DNA of 53,572 bases, from NCBI GenBank assembly GCA_016649995.1, contig JAENWJ010000008.1:1-53572 (forward strand), written 5' to 3'. Below, one piece after another: positions 19,882 through 46,940 of this stretch (positions within the stretch are counted from its first letter, which is position 1; each line of letters opens with the position of its first letter). Both the position numbers and the translations under genes were made by a program. The notes under the pieces were generated by a model, which was not told the DNA's origin, did no database searches, and saw only the letters and a list, made by a program, of their open reading frames with translations. This DNA comes from Peptostreptococcaceae bacterium (lineage in GTDB: Bacteria > Bacillota > Clostridia > Peptostreptococcales > BM714).

Positions 19882-19910
19882 TTGAATATTTAACGGTCTT
19901 TGTATATAAT
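19882..19910 (+). promoter_or_regulatory. Promoter of the glycine reductase operon
   Basis: TTGAAT (19882-19887) and a perfect TATAAT (19905-19910) with 17-base spacing, about 80 bases upstream of the riboswitch. The region 19833-20242 holds no gene; it contains this promoter, the riboswitch and its terminator. Confidence 0.75.
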
Positions 19911-19990
19911 AATCATTGAAAGAATAAATACATCACATCAACTCATAAAATATTCCTATCACAATTTAATAAATCGATTTGGATGAACTA

Positions 19991-20169
19991 TGCGGGAGAG
20001 AGTCCGAAAGGACCGCCGAAGGAAAAAGTTTCAACGTTGCCGTTTGAAACAAAATTCTCAGGCAAAAGAACCGCACAGGGACGAGTCTCTGAAAAGCTTG
20101 ATTTTTGAGCACCGAAGGGGCAATTTTTATGGGGACATAAAGAGAAACTCTCAGGTCTTATGACAGAGA
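19991..20169 (+). ncRNA. Tandem glycine riboswitch
   Basis: Two consecutive glycine aptamers. The first (about 19991-20075) is closed by TGCGG / CCGCA and carries GGAGAGAGTCC, the core GCCGAAGG and the CTCAGGCAAAAG strand. The second (about 20076-20169) carries ACCGAAGGGGCAA and AACTCTCAGGTC. These are the conserved gcv-type elements. The aptamer pair is followed directly by an intrinsic terminator, so glycine binding is expected to prevent termination and turn on the grd genes. That ON direction follows from known gcvT-type riboswitches and the layout, not from experiment. Confidence 0.95.
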
Positions 20170-20207
20170 AGCAATGGGCTATTACAAACTCCTATTGCTT
20201 TTTTTTG
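20170..20207 (+). terminator. Riboswitch-controlled intrinsic terminator
   Basis: AGCAATGGG pairs with CCTATTGCT (one G-T pair) and is followed by eight T residues. The 5' arm abuts the last strand of the second aptamer, suggesting competition between aptamer closure and terminator. Confidence 0.88.
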
Positions 20208-20242
20208 TTGTCTTAAATCTGAGAGAAACCGGAGGGAATAAA

Positions 20243-20617
20243 ATGATACTGATTACCAACAACCAAAAGGTAGCGGAAACATTCGGAGACACAATTGATT
20301 TACTTTTCATGCCTGAAAAAACTTATCAAGAAATATTGCTTTATGTAAGGGATAGAATTCATGAAGGACACAAGCTATTGTCACATCCCCTATCAGGAAG
20401 CGTTAAACCTAATGAAACACCATTTAAATCTATTTTAATAAGCAGAACAAAGCAAGCCTTGGATTACGACTCTTTAGTAATAATTGAAGACAGCCTTGCG
20501 ACTGTAAGAAAATTCAATAATAACAAAATAACACCAAAGTGGACAGAAACGATACTTGATGATTTTAAGGTTATCGATCTTTCACTAATAGAGGGTGCTA
20601 TAGAAGGAAATCAATAA
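20243..20617 (+). CDS. grdX: Glycine reductase operon protein GrdX
   Basis: A 124-residue protein of unknown biochemical role that is regularly the first gene of glycine reductase operons. It begins MILITNNQKVAETFGDTIDLLF and includes HPLSGSVKPNETPFKSILIS, which matches the GrdX family. ATG 20243 is preceded by GGAGGG. An upstream in-frame ATG at 20174 lies within the terminator hairpin and is rejected. Only 18 bases separate it from trxB. No catalytic motif is recognisable. Confidence 0.88.
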   Translation: MILITNNQKVAETFGDTIDLLFMPEKTYQEILLYVRDRIHEGHKLLSHPLSGSVKPNETPFKSILISRTKQALDYDSLVIIEDSLATVRKFNNNKITPKWTETILDDFKVIDLSLIEGAIEGNQ

Positions 20618-20635: not shown

Positions 20636-21583
20636 ATGGAAAATTTATACGATGTAGTAATAATAGGTGCAGGACCCGCAGGATTGGCGGCCGGACTTTA
20701 TTCTTCAAGAGCAAGGATGAAGACATTAATTCTTGAAAAGGAAAAAGCGGGCGGACAGATTGTAACGACTAATGAAGTTGCGAACTATCCGGGTTCGATT
20801 GAAGATGCAACAGGGCCAAGCCTCGTTGCCAGAATGGTTGAGCAGGCGGAAGAATTTGGGGCCGAAAGAATAAAAGATGAAATAGTAAAGGTTGAACTTA
20901 AGGGCAAGATCAAAGTTGTTTCCGGAGAAAAAGGGGTATACAAATCCAAGGTGGTCATAATTGCAACAGGAGCAAGCCCGAGATATCTTGGAGTTCCTGG
21001 AGAACGTGAATTAACAGGGAAAGGCGTATCGTACTGCGCCACATGCGATGCCGACTTCTTTACAGACTTGGAAGTCTATGTAATAGGCGGAGGCGATACT
21101 GCGGTAGAAGAGGCAATGTACCTCACGAAGTTTGCAAGAAAAGTTATTATTGTTCATAGAAGAGATGAATTGAGAGCGGCCAAGTCTATTCGTGAAAAAG
21201 CATTTAAAAATGAAAAAATGGCATTCATATGGGATTCTGTAGTTGAAGAGATCAAGGGTGACGGAATTGTCGAAACCTTGGTTCTAAAGAATAAAAAGAC
21301 AGGGGAAATAACAGAAATAAATGCACCCGAGGAAGATGGAACCTTTGGAATTTTCCCGTTCGTTGGATATATACCCAAAAACGAATTGTTCAAAGAATTA
21401 CTCGAGACTGACAAGGGTGGCTACATAATGACTGACCCTGATATGAAAACTGCGCTTCCCGGAGTGTTTGCTGCAGGAGACATTAGGCATAAATCATTAA
21501 GGCAAGTGGTTACAGCTGTTTCGGACGGAGCAATAGCCGCTGTTCAAGCGGAAAAATATATCGAAAATACATTTGAAGCGTAA
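20636..21583 (+). CDS. trxB: Thioredoxin reductase of the glycine reductase system
   Basis: FAD/NADPH enzyme (315 residues) supplying electrons to thioredoxin for glycine reduction. The FAD site is [10 protein letters not shown] (11-20), the redox-active disulfide is CATC (Cys134, Cys137), the NADPH site is [12 protein letters not shown] followed by HRRDELRA, and the C-terminal FAD motif is [17 protein letters not shown]. The RBS is AGGAGG. It is followed by trxA after 14 bases, the standard grd order. Confidence 0.95.
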
Positions 21584-21597
21584 AGGAGGGGCGAAAA

Positions 21598-21915
21598 ATG
21601 ATTATACTTGAAAAGAACAATTTCGAAGAGGAAGTTTTAAAATCTGAAGGGCTTGTTATTGTAGACTTCTGGAGTGACGGATGCGAACCATGCAAGGCTC
21701 TTATGCCGGATGTGGAGGCTCTTGCAGCGCAGTACGAAGGAAAAGTGAAATTTTGCAAATTGAATATCACTAAAGCTAGAAGATTGGCAATTTCTCAAAG
21801 AGTTTTAGGACTTCCGACTATTTTGCTTTACAAAGATGGCGAAAAAATCGAGGAAGTTACTAAAGACAATGCGAAACCGGCAAATATCGAAGCAATGATC
21901 GAGAAACACATTTAA
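21598..21915 (+). CDS. trxA: Thioredoxin of the glycine reductase system
   Basis: A 105-residue thioredoxin fold. The active site reads [11 protein letters not shown], so the redox pair sits in GCEPC rather than the usual WCGPC. This altered site is typical of thioredoxins encoded inside glycine reductase operons of amino-acid-fermenting clostridia. The cis-proline segment LGLPTILLY is present. It should reduce the selenenyl-sulfide formed on selenoprotein A. AAAGGAGGGG precedes the ATG. A strong pair of alternative hairpins lies between it and grdE. Confidence 0.93.
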
Positions 21916-21944: not shown

Positions 21945-21967
21945 TAAAATAAAGGGGGGTGAATGTT

Positions 21968-23254
21968 TTGCGTTTGGAACTTGGAAAAATCAAGATTACA
22001 GATGTTCAATTTTCAGAAGCAACTAAAGTTGAAAATGGTACCCTGTATGTTAACAAGCAGGAAATCATCGACTTGGTAATGGATGATGAGCATATTGTAA
22101 AATGCGTTGTGGAACTTGCAAGACCCGGTGAAAGTGTTCGAATTACACCTGTTAAGGATGTAATTGAGCCGAGAGTAAAAGTTGAAGGTCCCGGTGGAAT
22201 ATTCCCTGGAATGATCAACAAGGTTGAGACTGTAGGAAGCGGAAGAACGCACGTATTGAGCGGAGCAGCCGTTGTAACTTGCGGAAAAATCGTAGGATTC
22301 CAGGAAGGCATTATCGACATGACCGGTCCGGGAGCCGAATTGACTCCATTCTCTAAATTGAACAATGTATGCGTGGTTGTAGAGCCGAAGGAAGGCATTG
22401 AACAGCATACATACGAAAAAGCAGCAAGAATGGCAGGACTGAAAGTGGCAACCTATCTTGGAAAGGCTGGCATTGACGTTGAACCTGATGAAGTCATGAT
22501 ATATGAGACAAAACCTTTATTGGAACAGGCTGCGGAATATCCCGACTTGCCTAAAGTGGGATATGTATACATGCTCCAGACACAAGGGTTGCTTCATGAT
22601 TCATACGTTTATGGCGTGGACGCTAAGAAAATAGTTCCGACCATTCTTTATCCGACAGAAATTATGGATGGGGCAATATTGAGCGGAAACTGTGTTTCTG
22701 CCTGCGACAAAAATACTTCGTATCACCATTTGAACAATCCGATTATTGAGGAGCTTTATAAGAAACACGGCAAGGAATTGAACTTTATGGGAGTCATAGC
22801 GACTAACGAAAATGTTTATCTTGCAGACAAGGAAAGATCATCCGACTGGTCGGCTAAATTTGCAAAATATCTCGGACTCGATGCTGCAATCATTTCGCAA
22901 GAAGGTTTCGGTAATCCGGATACCGACTTGATTATGAACTGCAAAAAAATTGAGAATCAAGGAGTAAAAACAGTAATAGTTACTGACGAATATGCCGGTA
23001 GAGACGGGGCATCCCAATCATTGGCTGATGCCGATCCTAAGGCGGATGCTGTTGTAACGGGCGGAAATGCAAACGAGTTTATCATCTTGCCTCCAATGGA
23101 CAAGATTATCGGAATGCTTGACTATGCGGATAGAATAGCCGGAGGATTCGATGGCAGTCTCAAGCCGGATGGAAGCATAGAAGCTGAAATTCAAGTTATA
23201 ACAGGAGCTACGAACGAACTGGGCTTCAATAAATACTCTGCCACAACATACTAA
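21968..23254 (+). CDS. grdE: Glycine reductase protein B proprotein GrdE
   Basis: Precursor (428 residues) of the alpha and beta subunits of substrate-binding protein B. Family members self-cleave at an Asn-Cys bond, turning the Cys into a pyruvoyl group that forms the Schiff base with glycine; here the site is SGNCVSACD with Cys242. I choose TTG 21968 (MRLELGKIKI), 8 bases after AGGGGGG; GTG 21959 sits in the ribosome binding site, and the TTG start puts the cleavage Cys at the position known for the characterised homologue. Works with GrdB. Next gene is grdA, 33 bases downstream. Confidence 0.95.
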   Translation: MRLELGKIKITDVQFSEATKVENGTLYVNKQEIIDLVMDDEHIVKCVVELARPGESVRITPVKDVIEPRVKVEGPGGIFPGMINKVETVGSGRTHVLSGAAVVTCGKIVGFQEGIIDMTGPGAELTPFSKLNNVCVVVEPKEGIEQHTYEKAARMAGLKVATYLGKAGIDVEPDEVMIYETKPLLEQAAEYPDLPKVGYVYMLQTQGLLHDSYVYGVDAKKIVPTILYPTEIMDGAILSGNCVSACDKNTSYHHLNNPIIEELYKKHGKELNFMGVIATNENVYLADKERSSDWSAKFAKYLGLDAAIISQEGFGNPDTDLIMNCKKIENQGVKTVIVTDEYAGRDGASQSLADADPKADAVVTGGNANEFIILPPMDKIIGMLDYADRIAGGFDGSLKPDGSIEAEIQVITGATNELGFNKYSATTY

Positions 23255-23287: not shown

Positions 23288-23761
23288 ATGAGCGTATTTG
23301 AGAACAAGAAAATCATAATCATCGGAGATAGAGACGGCGTACCGGGTCCGGCCATTGAGGAATGCATAAAAACGGTTTCCGGAACAGAAGTTGTCTTCTC
23401 CGCTACAGAATGTTTCGTCTGAACGGCCGCAGGAGCAATGGATCTGGAGAATCAAAACAGAGTTAAAGATCTCGCAGAAAAACACGGTGCTGAAAATGTA
23501 GTTGTAATATTTGGCGCAGCAGAAGCTGAATCAGCCGGATTATCAGCTGAAACCGTTACTAACGGAGATCCTACCTTTGCAGGTCCTTTAGCAGGAGTCC
23601 AGTTGGGACTCGCAGTTTATCATGCAGTAGAGCCGGAATTCAAAGAAGCAGTTGATCCGGACGTGTACGAAGAGCAAATCAGTATGATGGAAATGGTTTT
23701 GGATGTTGATGAAATAATCGAAGAGATGACGTCAATAAGAAATGATTTTTCAAAGTACTAA
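23288..23761 (+). CDS. grdA: Glycine reductase selenoprotein A (in-frame UGA = selenocysteine)
   Basis: Small selenoprotein (157 residues counting Sec) that takes the carboxymethyl group from protein B and is reduced by thioredoxin. It starts [17 protein letters not shown] at ATG 23288. TGA at 23420-23422 lies in [14 protein letters not shown], giving Sec45, with a nearby Cys42 in the family's C-F-V-U redox motif. Reading through restores a single frame ending at TAA 23759-23761. A conventional gene caller would call only the part after the UGA or split it. No strong hairpin right after the UGA was found by eye; the weak CAGG...TCTG pairing at 23430-23446 is the best candidate for a SECIS. 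Confidence 0.96.
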
Positions 23762-23791: not shown

Positions 23792-25102
23792 ATGAGTAAG
23801 TATAAAGTTGTTCATTATATAAATCAGTTTTTTGCCGGCATCGGAGGCGAAGAAAAAGCGAACATCCCGCCGGAAATGAGAGACGGAGTTGTTGGTCCGG
23901 GAATGGCATTTGCCGGAGCGTTAAAAGATGATATGGAAATTGTAGCGACAATTATTTGTGGAGATTCCTATTACGCAGAGAATATGGAGACAGCTGAAGA
24001 GACCATACTCGAAATGGTGAGATCAAAATCTCCGGATATGTTCATCGCAGGACCGGCTTTTAACGCGGGAAGATACGGAACAGCCTGCGGAGCAATATGC
24101 AAGGCCGTCAAGGACGATCTTGGAATCCCAGTTTTGACAGGTATGTATGTTGAAAACCCTGGGGCCGACATGTTCAAAAAAGATTTATTCATTGCCGAGA
24201 CTAAAAATTCGGCCGCAGATATGAGAAAAGCCGTACCCAAAATGGCTAAACTGGCAATAAAAATGGCAAAGGGCGAGGAGCTTGGAAGCCCTGCAGACGA
24301 AGGATATCTTGAAAGAGGAATCAGAAAGAACATATTCAGAGAAAAAAGAGGCGCAGAGAGAGCTGTTGACATGCTATTGGCAAAAATCAATTCGCAGCCT
24401 TTCGTAACTGAATATCCAATGCCTGTATTTGACCATGTTGCTCCGGCGGCAGCACTTAAAGATATTTCAAAGGCAAAAATTGCAGTAGTTACTTCAGGTG
24501 GAATTGTTCCAAAGGGTAATCCCGATCATATCGAATCGTCAAGTGCGTCAAAATACGGAAAGTATGACTTGACGGGGTTTGACTTTTTGACCGCGGAAAC
24601 TCATGAAACTGCTCATGGCGGTTATGATCCATGCTATGCGAACAGTGATCCTAACAGGGTTCTTCCGATTGATGTATTGAGAGATTTAGAAAGAGAAGGC
24701 GTAATCGGAGAGCTTCATAAATACTACTACGCAACTGTAGGAAACGGAACATCCGTTGGAAATGCAGTCAAGTTTGCTGCAGAATATGCACAAGAACTTT
24801 TGGCAGACGGAGTCGATGGCGTTATCATGACCTCCACCTGAGGCACCTGTACTAGATGCGGTGCATCTATGCTGAAAGAAATTGAAAGAGTCGGATTGCC
24901 GATTGTTCACATTTGTACTGTTGTGCCGATTTCATTGACAGTTGGAGCTAACAGAATTGTACCTGCTATTGCCATCCCTCATCCGCTTGGTGATCCCAGC
25001 CTGAATGCTCAGGAAGAAAAGAGTTTAAGAAGAAAGATAGTTGAAAGAGCTCTTAAGGCTTTGACTGTTGAAGTTGACAAACAGACAGTATTCGAGGACT
25101 AA
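23792..25102 (+). CDS. grdB: Glycine reductase selenoprotein B gamma subunit (in-frame UGA = selenocysteine)
   Basis: Catalytic selenoprotein subunit of the glycine-specific protein B, 436 residues counting Sec. The selenolate attacks the Schiff-base-bound substrate to release ammonia. TGA at 24839-24841 corresponds to Sec350 in TSTUGTCTRCGAS, a U-X-X-C redox motif identical in form to known GrdB. The frame continues uninterrupted on both sides (start AAAGGGGGG-ATG 23792, stop TAA 25100-25102). Comparison with other GrdB-like proteins (sarcosine and betaine reductase GrdF/GrdH) is needed for specificity, but the grd order with a glycine riboswitch supports glycine. Confidence 0.95.
24842..24870 (+). 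promoter_or_regulatory. Candidate bacterial SECIS hairpin of grdB
   Basis: Directly after the UGA, TAGATGC (24853-24859) pairs perfectly with GCATCTA (24863-24869) around a GGU loop 19-21 bases downstream. Known bacterial SECIS elements lie within the coding region just after UGA and present a G-U containing apical loop to SelB. A less stable GCACC/GGTGC pairing overlaps the same bases. Confidence 0.5.
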
Positions 25103-25108
25103 AAACGT

Positions 25109-25141
25109 TGGACGGTCTTTAATAAGGCCGTCCATTTTTAA
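25109..25141 (+). terminator. Hairpin with T run between grdB and grdC
   Basis: TGGACGG / CCGTCCA (25109-25115 and 25128-25134) around a TCTTTAATAAGG loop, followed by ATTTTTA. It looks like an intrinsic terminator inside the operon. It may be partial, setting lower grdC-grdD levels than grdA-grdB. Confidence 0.7.
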
Positions 25142-25179: not shown

Positions 25180-26715
25180 ATGAAATTTCCTGTAGTCAAG
25201 GGAGCTGGGTATATTTTGGTTAATACTCCGGATATGGTAGTTCACAACGGGTCGACTCAAACAATCGAAAGGTTGACAAATCCGGATTCGGAATATCTAA
25301 AGGGATTGACCGAACATATAAGATCCTTCGATGAGGTTGTGGCGTATTTGCCGAATCAGGTATATATTGGAAATTTACATCCTGAAAAATTAAGAGAATA
25401 CGATATGCCTTGGTTTGACAAGGAATCACCAATAAAAGAAAGATTTGGTAAGTACGGAGAAATCATGCCTGAAGACGAGTTTATAGGACTCATGAAAATA
25501 GCTGATGCTTTCGATCTTGTAAAATTGGAAAATGATTTTGTTGTTGAAGTAAAGAAGAAATTGCAGAAACATCCTCTTTTCGACGAAGCGGACCTTGCGA
25601 AAATAAAAGAAGGTGTAGTGCTTTCGGAAATTGAAGATTTGATAAGTGGAAATCACGCTGAAGGCATTTATGTTGACGGAAAAGTTGTAGGATGCGTGAA
25701 ACGGGCCCATGACATCGATACGAACCTTAATGCGCACACGATGTTTGAAAATATCGTTGTAAAGGCTTCCGGTGCGTTGGCGCTTAGAAACCTTATCGCA
25801 AAGAATGATTTTGACCCTGCATCAATAGAGTATGTAATTGAGTGTTCGGAAGAAGCTTGCGGAGATATAAACCAGAGAGGCGGCGGCAATTTTGCGAAGG
25901 CTATCGCAGAAATGGCCGGAGCTGTCAATGCAACAGGATCGGATACAAGAGGCTTTTGCGCTGCGCCTACTCACGCATTGATAAACGCATCGGCACTTGT
26001 TCAAGCAGGGGTATACAAAAATGTGGTTATTGTTGCAGGCGGAGCTACGGCTAAGCTTGGAATGAATGGTAAAGACCATGTTAAAAAGGGATATCCGGTC
26101 TTGGAAGATGTTCTTGGTGGATTTGCAATTATGATAAGCCAAAACGATGGGGTTAGTCCGATAGTCAGAACCGATTTGGTTGGAAGACATACTGTTGGAA
26201 CCGGCTCATCGCCACAGGCGGTAATTACATCATTGATTACTGCGCCTCTGGACAAAGGGAACCTCAAGATAACGGATATTGACAAGTATTCGGTCGAAAT
26301 GCAGAATCCGGATATAACAAAACCGGCTGGAGCTGGAGATGTTCCGACAGCTAATTACAAGATGATTGCCGCTCTTGGAGTAAAACGCAAAGAGCTCGAG
26401 CGTAAAGAGTTGATGCCATTTGTTGAAAAACACGGTTTACCGGGATGGGCGCCTACACAGGGACATATACCTTCGGGTGTTCCATATGTGGGATTTGCCA
26501 TAGATGACATGGCTGAAGGCAAATTGAGCAAGGCCATGATTGTTGGCAAGGGAAGTCTATTCCTGGGCCGTATGACTAATCTGTTCGATGGTGTTTCTGT
26601 TATTCTTGAAAAGAATACCGGCATGGAAGAGACGGAATCGGTTTCGAAAGTTGAAGTCAAGAAGCTGATTGCTGAAGCCATTAGGGGATTCGCTGAAACG
26701 CTGACGGATGAATAG
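25180..26715 (+). CDS. grdC: Glycine reductase protein C beta subunit
   Basis: Large subunit (511 residues) of protein C, which takes the carboxymethyl-selenoether from protein A and releases acetyl phosphate. The fold is FabH/thiolase-like from about residue 190, including ECSEEACGDINQRGGGNFAK, ATGSDTRGFCAAPTHALINAS with the nucleophile-elbow-like cysteine, and AGGATAKLGMNGKDH. The N-terminal 180 residues are specific to GrdC. GGAGGTGAGG precedes the ATG. It is followed by grdD after 10 bases. Confidence 0.95.
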   Translation: MKFPVVKGAGYILVNTPDMVVHNGSTQTIERLTNPDSEYLKGLTEHIRSFDEVVAYLPNQVYIGNLHPEKLREYDMPWFDKESPIKERFGKYGEIMPEDEFIGLMKIADAFDLVKLENDFVVEVKKKLQKHPLFDEADLAKIKEGVVLSEIEDLISGNHAEGIYVDGKVVGCVKRAHDIDTNLNAHTMFENIVVKASGALALRNLIAKNDFDPASIEYVIECSEEACGDINQRGGGNFAKAIAEMAGAVNATGSDTRGFCAAPTHALINASALVQAGVYKNVVIVAGGATAKLGMNGKDHVKKGYPVLEDVLGGFAIMISQNDGVSPIVRTDLVGRHTVGTGSSPQAVITSLITAPLDKGNLKITDIDKYSVEMQNPDITKPAGAGDVPTANYKMIAALGVKRKELERKELMPFVEKHGLPGWAPTQGHIPSGVPYVGFAIDDMAEGKLSKAMIVGKGSLFLGRMTNLFDGVSVILEKNTGMEETESVSKVEVKKLIAEAIRGFAETLTDE

Positions 26716-26725
26716 GGGTGTTGAT

Positions 26726-27907
26726 ATGGCTGAAAATCTTGCTGTAAAAAAAATGATAAAAGATACATTCATGGAAATTGCCGATTCAATTGAGAGTGGT
26801 GATTTTGGTCGGAAGATAAGAGTCGGATTGACAATTCTCGGAAGTGAGCATGGAACGGAAAACCTGATTAAAGGTGCAGTACTTGCCGCTTCGAGATTGA
26901 GAGATACGGAAATTGTTTTGATTGGTCCGGAAAACGATTCTAATTTGGAAACGGTCGTTGTTAAAGAAGAAAGGGACATGCATTCCAAGATGGAAGAGAT
27001 ATTGGACAATGGATTTATAGATGCATGCGTAACTATGCATTACAATTTTCCCATTGGGGTTTCTACGGTAGGAATGGTTTTAACACCCGCTACTGGCAAG
27101 GAAATGATTATTGCAACCACTACGGGAACATCTTCCATGAATCGCACGGAAGCGATGCTAAGGAATGCCTTGCACGGAATAATTACAGCGAAGGCATTGG
27201 GAATAGAAGAGCCAACGGTTGGAATTTTGAATCTGGATGGAGCAAGACAAGTTGAAAGGCTTCTGAAGGAATTGAAAGGCAATGGATACGAAATTTTCTT
27301 TGGAGAATCTTCGAGAGCCGACGGCGGAGTAGTTATGAGGGGCAACGATCTCTTGCAAGGTAGCGTTGATGTCATGGTGACAGATACCTTGACAGGAAAC
27401 ATTTTGATGAAGATGTTTTCATCATATACCACGGGTGGAAGCTATGAAGCGTCAGGCTACGGATACGGGCCGGGCGTTGGGAAGGATTATGGTCGAATCA
27501 TATTGATCCTTTCTAGGGCATCAGGTATTCCGGTGGTTGCAAATGCAATAGAGTATGCCTCAAGTTTGGCCAGGGGCGAGCTGGGGGGTATTGCCCGGGT
27601 TGAATTCGATAAAGCGGAAAAAGCCGGATTGAAGAGTTTGACAGTAAATACGGTCAAGGATAAGAATGAAGATTCAGAAGAAACCGTAAAAGTTCCAACA
27701 AAGGAAATTGTAACTGGAACTTTGTCCGGCATAGACATAATGGAGCTTGAAGATGCAGTACAGGCTTTGTGGAAAGCGGGGATTTATGCCGAAAGCGGCA
27801 TGGGTTGCACGGGACCCGTTGTTATGGTAAGCGAAGCCAAGGCGCAGAAAGCTATGGATGTATTGATTAAAAAAGGATTTATGGCTAAAGAATCTGCACC
27901 ATGCTAA
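26726..27907 (+). CDS. grdD: Glycine reductase protein C alpha subunit
   Basis: Small subunit (393 residues) of protein C with a PlsX/phosphotransacetylase-like fold. The C-terminal motif GMGCTGPVVMV holds Cys361, matching the acetyl-thioester cysteine of the family, which is released by phosphate as acetyl phosphate. ATG 26726 follows AGGGGTG at good spacing. An ATG at 26708 overlaps the end of grdC and adds six non-family residues. Last gene of the operon, followed by a terminator. Confidence 0.94.
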   Translation: MAENLAVKKMIKDTFMEIADSIESGDFGRKIRVGLTILGSEHGTENLIKGAVLAASRLRDTEIVLIGPENDSNLETVVVKEERDMHSKMEEILDNGFIDACVTMHYNFPIGVSTVGMVLTPATGKEMIIATTTGTSSMNRTEAMLRNALHGIITAKALGIEEPTVGILNLDGARQVERLLKELKGNGYEIFFGESSRADGGVVMRGNDLLQGSVDVMVTDTLTGNILMKMFSSYTTGGSYEASGYGYGPGVGKDYGRIILILSRASGIPVVANAIEYASSLARGELGGIARVEFDKAEKAGLKSLTVNTVKDKNEDSEETVKVPTKEIVTGTLSGIDIMELEDAVQALWKAGIYAESGMGCTGPVVMVSEAKAQKAMDVLIKKGFMAKESAPC

Positions 27908-43199: not shown

Positions 43200-43553
43200 G
43201 GGGGCGTACAGGTTTCGACGGGGGTATGGAGCATTGAACAGCGAGCTGTGGTTTGTTTGGTGCCACATTAAAAAACCGGACAAAAATGTAAACGCAGATA
43301 ATAATTACGCTTTAGCCGCCTAGTTGTGGCTCATCCTGCTGAAGCCTACCCGCCGCTTCAGTTATAGGGTGTCGATATGCGGGGATCCGACTTGAGGGTT
43401 GTCCCGACCTCTTGCTGAACTAATTGGGACTGGCCGATGAAACAGCTTGTCATTGAGCGGTTTTGGACGCGAGAAATAAATCAATGACTGCGCTCGGAGA
43501 ATTTCAATGTTAAGTGCTTTCGGACGCGGGTTCGATTCCCGCCGCCTCCACCA
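43200..43553 (+). ncRNA. ssrA: Transfer-messenger RNA (tmRNA)
   Basis: The 5' GGGGGCG pairs with 3' CGCCTCC of the acceptor stem, then discriminator A and encoded CCA at 43551-43553. The 3' part has the T-arm GGTTCGATTCC. The tag frame at 43294-43323 reads ADNNYALAA followed by TAG, which has the ALAA protease-recognition end. Length is 354 nt. It follows smpB as in many bacteria and ends with an independent terminator. Confidence 0.97.
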
Positions 43554-45602: not shown

Positions 45603-45869
45603 CTATTCAGTCGTGTGATAAAATAATGTGTTAGATAGTAATGAATTTGTGTTCAATTGCATCTAAATTTTGACGCTGTTTCAAAATATATTTCAAATAG
45701 ACATAATCGGCTACTTGAAATCCAAATAATAGAAAAAATACACAAGTAGAGATATTAGATAAACTACCTATAACAGAATAATATAGGTAGTTTTTTAATG
45801 TTTTCTACACACGTAAGCTTGATATAGGTAAATAATAGTGATAATCTACTTATAAAGGAGTGGATATTG
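45603..45869 (+). other. Intergenic region with a short open remnant and a terminator
   Basis: AT-rich 267-base gap. One frame (about 45653-45745) is open for about 29 codons and reads NFDAVSKYISNRHNRLLEIQ before a TAG. It has no start or ribosome binding site, so it may be a coding remnant; family unknown. A hairpin AAACTACCTAT / ATAGGTAGTTT with T run ends at 45796. Confidence 0.4.
45761..45796 (+). terminator. Intrinsic terminator upstream of the Fic gene
   Basis: AAACTACCTAT pairs with ATAGGTAGTTT around an ACAGAATA-type loop, followed by TTTTTT. Confidence 0.85.
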
Positions 45870-46940
45870 ATGGATTATAATACGTTGAATATGTTACCGC
45901 CTAATTCAGATATTGAAACTAATAAAATATTGAAGCAGTTGTCGAAAACAAATCGTTTGCTAGCTGAGCTAAAAGGTTTTTCGGATACGATTCCAAATAA
46001 GAATATTTTGATCAATGTAATTTTAATCAATGAAGCAAAAGATAGTTCGGAAATCGAAAATATTGTGACTACACACGATGAAATTTATAGGGCTATGAGT
46101 CAATATTCCTCAGGAAGTGCTGCTGCGAAAGAAGTGATTTCGTACCGAGAAGCGCTCTGGTATGGATTCGATTTTATAAAAAAGCATGAAGTAATTACAA
46201 CAAATATGATTATAGATTTACAATCAATTGTTGAGGGTAATGATGCTGGAATTAGAAAGTTGCCTGGTACTGTTCTTAAAAATGATATGACAGGTGAAAT
46301 TGTATATACACCACCAATAGGTGAAGTGGTAATCAGAGAATTATTGAGTAATCTTGAGAATTATATTAATGACGATGAGATAATTGTTGACCCATTGATA
46401 AAACTAGCAGTTATTCATTATCAATTTGAAAGCATTCATCCTTTCTATGATGCGAACGGTAGAACAGGTAGAATTATCAATATTTTGTATTTAGTTTTAA
46501 AAGACCTCATTGAGAGTCCTATACTGTATTTAAGTAAGTATATAAACGAGAATAAATTAGAGTACTATAGATTACTTCACGAAGTAAGGACAAAAGAAAA
46601 TTGGGAGGATTGGATTATTTATATTCTTAAAGGTATAGAGGAGACTTCAAATGAAACTTTGAGGATAGTGAGAAGAATAAATGAAGAGGTACAATTAATG
46701 ACAGATGAAATAAAACAAAATCTACCAAAGCTATATTCAAAAGAATTAATTGATTTATTATTTTTTGAATTTTATACTAAAACGATATTTATTCAGAAAG
46801 GACTATCCGTATCCAGAAAAACTGCAGTTACATATTTGAATATTCTTGAAAAAGAAGGCATCCTAGTATCAGAGAAGATTGGAAAGGAAAGGATTTACCT
46901 GAACAAACGGTTGTTTGATATTGTTAGATACAGTAGATAA
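45870..46940 (+). CDS. Fic-family adenylyltransferase with N-terminal inhibitory helix
   Basis: A 356-residue protein with a full Fic core HPFYDANGRTGRI (near residues 190-202), expected to transfer AMP from ATP onto a hydroxyl of a target protein. The N-terminal segment KDSSEIENIVTT carries the (S/T)xxxE(G/N) inhibitory motif, placing it in the class whose inhibitory helix precedes the Fic core in the same chain. The C-terminal 90 residues form a winged helix (LSVSRKTAVTYLNILEKEGILVS), so it may bind DNA or regulate its own gene. ATG 45870 is 9 bases after AAGGAG. No separate antitoxin is needed by this class. Target unknown. Confidence 0.9.
   Translation: MDYNTLNMLPPNSDIETNKILKQLSKTNRLLAELKGFSDTIPNKNILINVILINEAKDSSEIENIVTTHDEIYRAMSQYSSGSAAAKEVISYREALWYGFDFIKKHEVITTNMIIDLQSIVEGNDAGIRKLPGTVLKNDMTGEIVYTPPIGEVVIRELLSNLENYINDDEIIVDPLIKLAVIHYQFESIHPFYDANGRTGRIINILYLVLKDLIESPILYLSKYINENKLEYYRLLHEVRTKENWEDWIIYILKGIEETSNETLRIVRRINEEVQLMTDEIKQNLPKLYSKELIDLLFFEFYTKTIFIQKGLSVSRKTAVTYLNILEKEGILVSEKIGKERIYLNKRLFDIVRYSR

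Follow-up and report, generated by a model that had tools for sequence, protein, structure and literature searches.

A tandem glycine riboswitch with weak aptamer-terminator overlap, probably an ON switch of the glycine reductase operon in a Peptostreptococcaceae bacterium

Can glycine turn on its own reduction through a leader in which the glycine sensor and the transcription terminator barely overlap? This question is raised by a glycine reductase (grd) locus in a stretch of 53,572 nucleotides (the window; contig JAENWJ010000008.1, assembly GCA_016649995.1) from a Peptostreptococcaceae bacterium. The genome comprises 1.84 Mb in 103 contigs, and the family is represented by two genomes, both of one genus, the second of which, a metagenome assembly, is referred to herein as the sister. 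The initial annotation had placed a promoter, two glycine aptamers and an intrinsic terminator in positions 19882-20242, and this extent proved right, with grdX starting at 20243 according to the NCBIfam GrdX model.

The selenium- and thioredoxin-dependent glycine reductase operon proposed to lie downstream was confirmed with NCBIfam models, UGA codons and the trxB-trxA pair. The order on the forward strand is grdX-trxB-trxA-grdE-grdA(Sec)-grdB(Sec)-grdC-grdD, with an in-frame UGA in both grdA and grdB. These genes comprise grdX (20243-20617; NF038093, 143.9 bits, cut-off 40), trxB for thioredoxin reductase (20636-21583; TIGR01292, 380 bits), trxA for a clostridial thioredoxin (21598-21915; NF047697, 168.8 bits), grdE for the protein B proprotein (21959-23254), grdA for selenoprotein A (23288-23761; NF040748, 276 bits with TGA read as Sec; UGA at 23420-23422), grdB for selenoprotein B (23792-25102; UGA for Sec at 24839-24841), grdC for protein C beta (25180-26715; NF040746, 832 bits) and grdD for protein C alpha (26708-27907; NF040747, 588 bits). 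With respect to the substrate, grdB scores 732 bits on the glycine model TIGR01917, which exceeds the cut-off, and falls under the cut-offs of the sarcosine and betaine exception models, and grdE scores 722.8 on its best NCBIfam match, the sarcosine GrdG exception model (cut-off 780), on which the C. difficile GrdE homologue is likewise below cut-off (659.6). A SECIS_4-like element following the grdB UGA (24842-24879, forward strand; RF01990) lies just under threshold at 37.2 bits (gathering score 38), and among 27 scanned grd loci of relatives, 26 pass at 49-66 bits. Between grdB and grdC, a strong terminator-like hairpin of 11 bp followed by TTTTT was observed at 25109-25134, and it may reduce the expression of grdC-grdD relative to that of grdE-grdA-grdB. 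Elsewhere in the window, a Fic-family protein adenylyltransferase (45867-46940; 388 bits to NF046030, below cut-off) is encoded downstream of the tmRNA gene (43200-43553).

The 321-nt leader folds much more stably than shuffled sequences (z -4.7). At its upstream edge, the proposed promoter corresponds to a sigma-A-type promoter-like site, TTGAAT-17-TATAAT (19882-19910, forward strand), with 10 of 12 consensus matches, but the region holds no more of these sites (23) than its shuffles would lead one to expect (24.2). The site is thus insignificant by itself, and its support is the conservation of both hexamers in L006, the sister and sole further genome of the genus. At the downstream edge, the ribosome-binding site of grdX, GGAGGG (20231-20236, forward strand), is the same in the sister and lies outside the terminator. 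Translational control through pairing of CUCUCAG in aptamer 2 with CUGAGAG (20220-20226) near this site was considered and rejected, since the downstream copy is not kept in the sister.

The two aptamers read from the letters were recovered in tandem by an Rfam covariance search of the whole window at gathering thresholds (32 for RF00504). Both lie on the forward strand: aptamer 1 at 19983-20083 (68.0 bits, E 4.2e-12; P1 at about 19988-19995/20071-20078) and, after a spacing of 2 nt, aptamer 2 at 20086-20169 (40.4 bits, E 7.8e-5), whose P1 is formed by UCUCUG (20086-20091) and CAGAGA (20164-20169). The pair is accompanied by a leader-linker kink-turn (P0), a feature of more than 90% of tandem glycine riboswitches (PMC5666159). 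The leader half, UUG GAUGAA (19979-19987, forward strand), was transferred from an alignment of the sister to RF03166, and the second half is the inter-aptamer linker (20079-20085, forward strand), located with the Rfam matches and the same alignment; UUG at 19979-19981 pairs with CGA at 20082-20084, in addition to GAUGAA/GGA. In the sister the linker reads CAA instead of CGA, converting a U.G to a U-A pair and keeping the kink-turn pairing. The best Rfam match of the sister grd leader is RF03166 (77 bits, under the gathering score of 110), and in its aptamer 2 core (around position 2200 of L006) the conserved CUCAGG has become CUCATG with loss of one pair with CCGAAGG, a change that could be an error in a metagenome assembly. 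From these features, both aptamers of the window are predicted to bind glycine.

The claim of an intrinsic terminator between the aptamers and the first gene likewise holds. The element (20165-20206, forward strand) consists of a 9-bp core (20170-20178/20191-20199; -9.4 kcal/mol, z -3.0 versus shuffles) ending at a U8 run (20199-20206), and of an extension in which AGAGA (20165-20169) pairs with the U-run (20200-20204), giving a hairpin of 14 bp (-14.6 kcal/mol, z -4.8); its 12-nt loop is overlooked by a pattern scan with an 8-nt loop limit. The pairing of AGAGA with UUUUU is expected by chance for any A/G-rich strand beside a U-run, and this overlap alone is weak evidence of a switch.

The extent of mutual exclusion between aptamer and terminator was modelled with nearest-neighbour energies, which take no account of tertiary folding, bound ligand or polymerase. 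In the full leader without constraints, the terminator core is predicted with a probability of 1.00, its extension with 0.95 and the P1 of aptamer 2 with 0.00, the 5' strand of this P1 being captured by an alternative linker hairpin, CAGGGA/UCUCUG (20076-20091, forward strand; probability 0.89). Upon imposing P1, at a cost of about 4 kcal/mol, the predicted linker hairpin falls to 0.00 and the extension from 0.95 to 0.00, and the core base pair remains at 0.89. The 9-bp core therefore still adjoins U8 with a gap of 0, only the 5-bp extension is lost, and a simple mutual exclusion of P1 and terminator is not found here. In the sister, as in the window, AGAGA alone engages the U-run. For aptamer 2 and the terminator alone, P1 and the 9-bp terminator even occur together in the minimum-energy fold. 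The initial annotation had argued that glycine can turn the operon on because the arm of the terminator begins at the end of the second aptamer. The direction is likely by homology and physiology, but the reasoning fails: an arm starting exactly at the end of P1 leaves both helices free to coexist, and switching requires overlap.

To place this arrangement among relatives, GrdE was scanned in one genome per species across 84,980 species, yielding 80 loci with organism names. Glycine aptamers were found in most of the clostridial grd leaders examined. Among 14 loci with a negative or doubtful motif search (Fusobacteria, Brachyspira, other spirochaetes, Izimaplasma, Haloplasma and others), 13 gave no Rfam match at the gathering threshold and one (L046) carries an Rfam glycine aptamer. 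In most relatives, the last aptamer, whether real or ghost, contributes the 3' strand of its P1 (CAGAG or CAGGG) as the basal part of the terminator 5' arm, so that the two structures are mutually exclusive and glycine should turn the genes ON; the partner of this strand, CTCTG, stands before the U-run, and this CUCUG is absent from the 3' arm in the window. When P1 was imposed, the terminator missed the U-run by at least 3 nt (at least 3 basal bp lost) in 35 of 51 leaders, a figure that rose to 38 once the upstream aptamer was part of the fold. These counts are not independent, because the leaders share ancestry, and they refer to a set selected for pairing of 3 nt or more of the P1 strand within the terminator, nine leaders being left out. 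A gap of 0 in both tests was observed in the window, the sister, L041 and L050, and about nine leaders give 1-2. The window first appeared as an extreme outlier in P1 cost (0.1 versus a median of 7.0 kcal/mol), a view softened to 3.6 versus 7.1 kcal/mol with the upstream aptamer included, at which setting other leaders have costs as low. Within these models, the zero gap to the U-run is thus a steadier difference than the energy cost, and the conflict between P1 and the terminator is weaker in this genus than in nearly all relatives.

Herein, we propose that the leader is a tandem glycine riboswitch whose expression platform is a transcription terminator and that it acts as an ON switch of the grd operon, a reading to which we assign a probability of roughly two in three. 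First, when glycine is absent, the P1 of aptamer 2 would not be held, and its 3' strand AGAGA would lengthen the terminator into the U-run, so that transcription stops before grdX. Second, when glycine is present, the tandem dimer braced by the kink-turn would hold P1, shortening the terminator from 14 to 9 bp and allowing more read-through. The ON direction is likely by analogy with homologous leaders and from the physiology and logic of the pathway, and we infer that the shortened stem suffices to alter termination. Given a modelled conflict below that of nearly all relatives, glycine control is expected to be leaky or modest.

The weakness of the conflict also fits a different reading, namely that the aptamers bind glycine beside a P1-independent terminator with fixed read-through, a constitutive or worn attenuator under little or no glycine control. 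The core keeps its place at U8 in the window and the sister with P1 imposed, the P1-complementary CUCUG in the 3' arm of most relatives is missing, and the core pair broken in the sister aptamer 2 would suit such wear. Against this stand the 93% identity of the leader between the two species, the kink-turn pairing kept through the change from U.G to U-A, and the recurrence of one junction between aptamer and terminator, TGACAGAGAAGCARTGG, in four leaders, those of grd and nuoE in each species; together these suggest selection rather than decay, and we regard this alternative as unlikely. A search for the 16-nt junction core in 394 genomes of the order gave only chance matches elsewhere, with no riboswitch at the matching sites (L154, L155, L158 and L159), and in the nuoE leaders folding likewise makes P1 and the terminator compatible. 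Nor is the arrangement likely to stem from decay confined to this leader or from a misassembled T-run: the sister shares both T8 and the junction, and the nuoE leaders carry this junction again. The recurrence suggests a design that has been kept.

The role of this design could be steric. With P1 ending at 20169 and the core stem starting at 20170, the bound aptamer would abut the terminator stem with zero spacer and block its entry into the RNA exit channel, giving an ON switch without overlap of P1 pairs. The identity of the junction in all four leaders of the genus speaks for this possibility, and a clear spacer between P1 and stem is absent from all relatives compared at the junction; on the other side, base-pair competition by the 5-bp extension may suffice, and we consider the steric switch improbable. 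Little credence is likewise given to the wider proposal that the genus uses such a contact-type platform in two operons, with a steric block and no real pair competition between P1 and terminator. Finally, an OFF switch, with glycine promoting termination as in reports on glycine riboswitches upstream of transporter genes, is very improbable: P1 and the terminator core are compatible and might stack on one another, but no antiterminator alternative is in reach (abolishing the core in the full leader costs 7.7-9.0 kcal/mol), the operon serves catabolism, and induction by glycine has been reported for its counterpart in C. difficile (PMC11477304).

Three further glycine leaders were observed in the same genome, before gcvT (L003), before ACT-domain and PRK05313 genes (L001) and before nuoE-nuoF (L004, L116). 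In the same models, the gcvT leader behaves like a canonical ON platform, with a P1 cost of 10.5 kcal/mol and a gap of 6 nt. Glycine leaders were found by motif in 3 of 30 nuoE loci from relatives, at L116:235-486 (contig C61 of the same genome), L118:1001-1260 (the sister) and L131:690-960 (another family). In the genus, this leader consists of one aptamer and a ghost, the genome's own copy matches RF03166 best, under the gathering score of 110, and the downstream electron-transfer gene has NuoG-like and GltD-like parts. A nuoE-nuoF glycine leader would link glycine to redox balancing, a literature search for a link between the glycine riboswitch and nuoE having brought up none. At L001:1406-1590 (reverse strand), the ACT-domain and PRK05313 genes, whose sister counterparts lie in L117, are preceded by a glycine aptamer that has a ghost on its 5' side. 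The terminator is located some 60 nt farther downstream; pairing between its 5' arm and the 5' strand of P1 is possible and would make the element an OFF switch.

Glycine reductase had been put forward as an unusual output for this riboswitch class, which was overstated, as a riboswitch before the grd operon is listed for C. difficile (CD2357-48; PMC11477304), the same element is cited in PMC10880999, and the association is common in Clostridia. The link between riboswitch and grd is thus already known, and the window is a further instance. In the C. difficile review, an ON switch was inferred from glycine-raised grd transcription (PMC11477304). The window and the C. difficile grd leader are alike in riboswitch class, operon and a terminator based on the P1 3' strand of the last aptamer. 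The leaders differ in two respects: C. difficile-type leaders (L082) have one RF00504 aptamer and a ghost second, whereas both aptamers pass RF00504 in the window, and the C. difficile-type terminator 3' arm ends in CCTG before the U-run, whereas that of the window runs directly into U8. The family RF03166 (glycine-GGAnGA), of the same clan as RF00504, describes a leader with a GGAnGA kink-turn in which one aptamer is complete and the second domain is reduced, unlike aptamer 2 of the window, which passes the full RF00504 model. Tandem aptamers, a leader-linker kink-turn and an intrinsic terminator are also common to the window and the gcvT leader of B. subtilis, an ON switch acting through its terminator by experiment, in which weakening the terminator base led to constitutive expression (PMC5666159). 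That leader controls glycine cleavage and depends on its terminator base, whereas the grd leader of the window would control glycine reduction with a stem base that barely overlaps P1. We regard this weak overlap as a variant expression platform, not as a new class. Across about 50 homologous leaders, the overlap of sensor and terminator ranges from almost none to at least 8 nt, with this genus at the low end, and a comparison of these leaders, a natural test case, would show how much overlap a transcriptional riboswitch needs.
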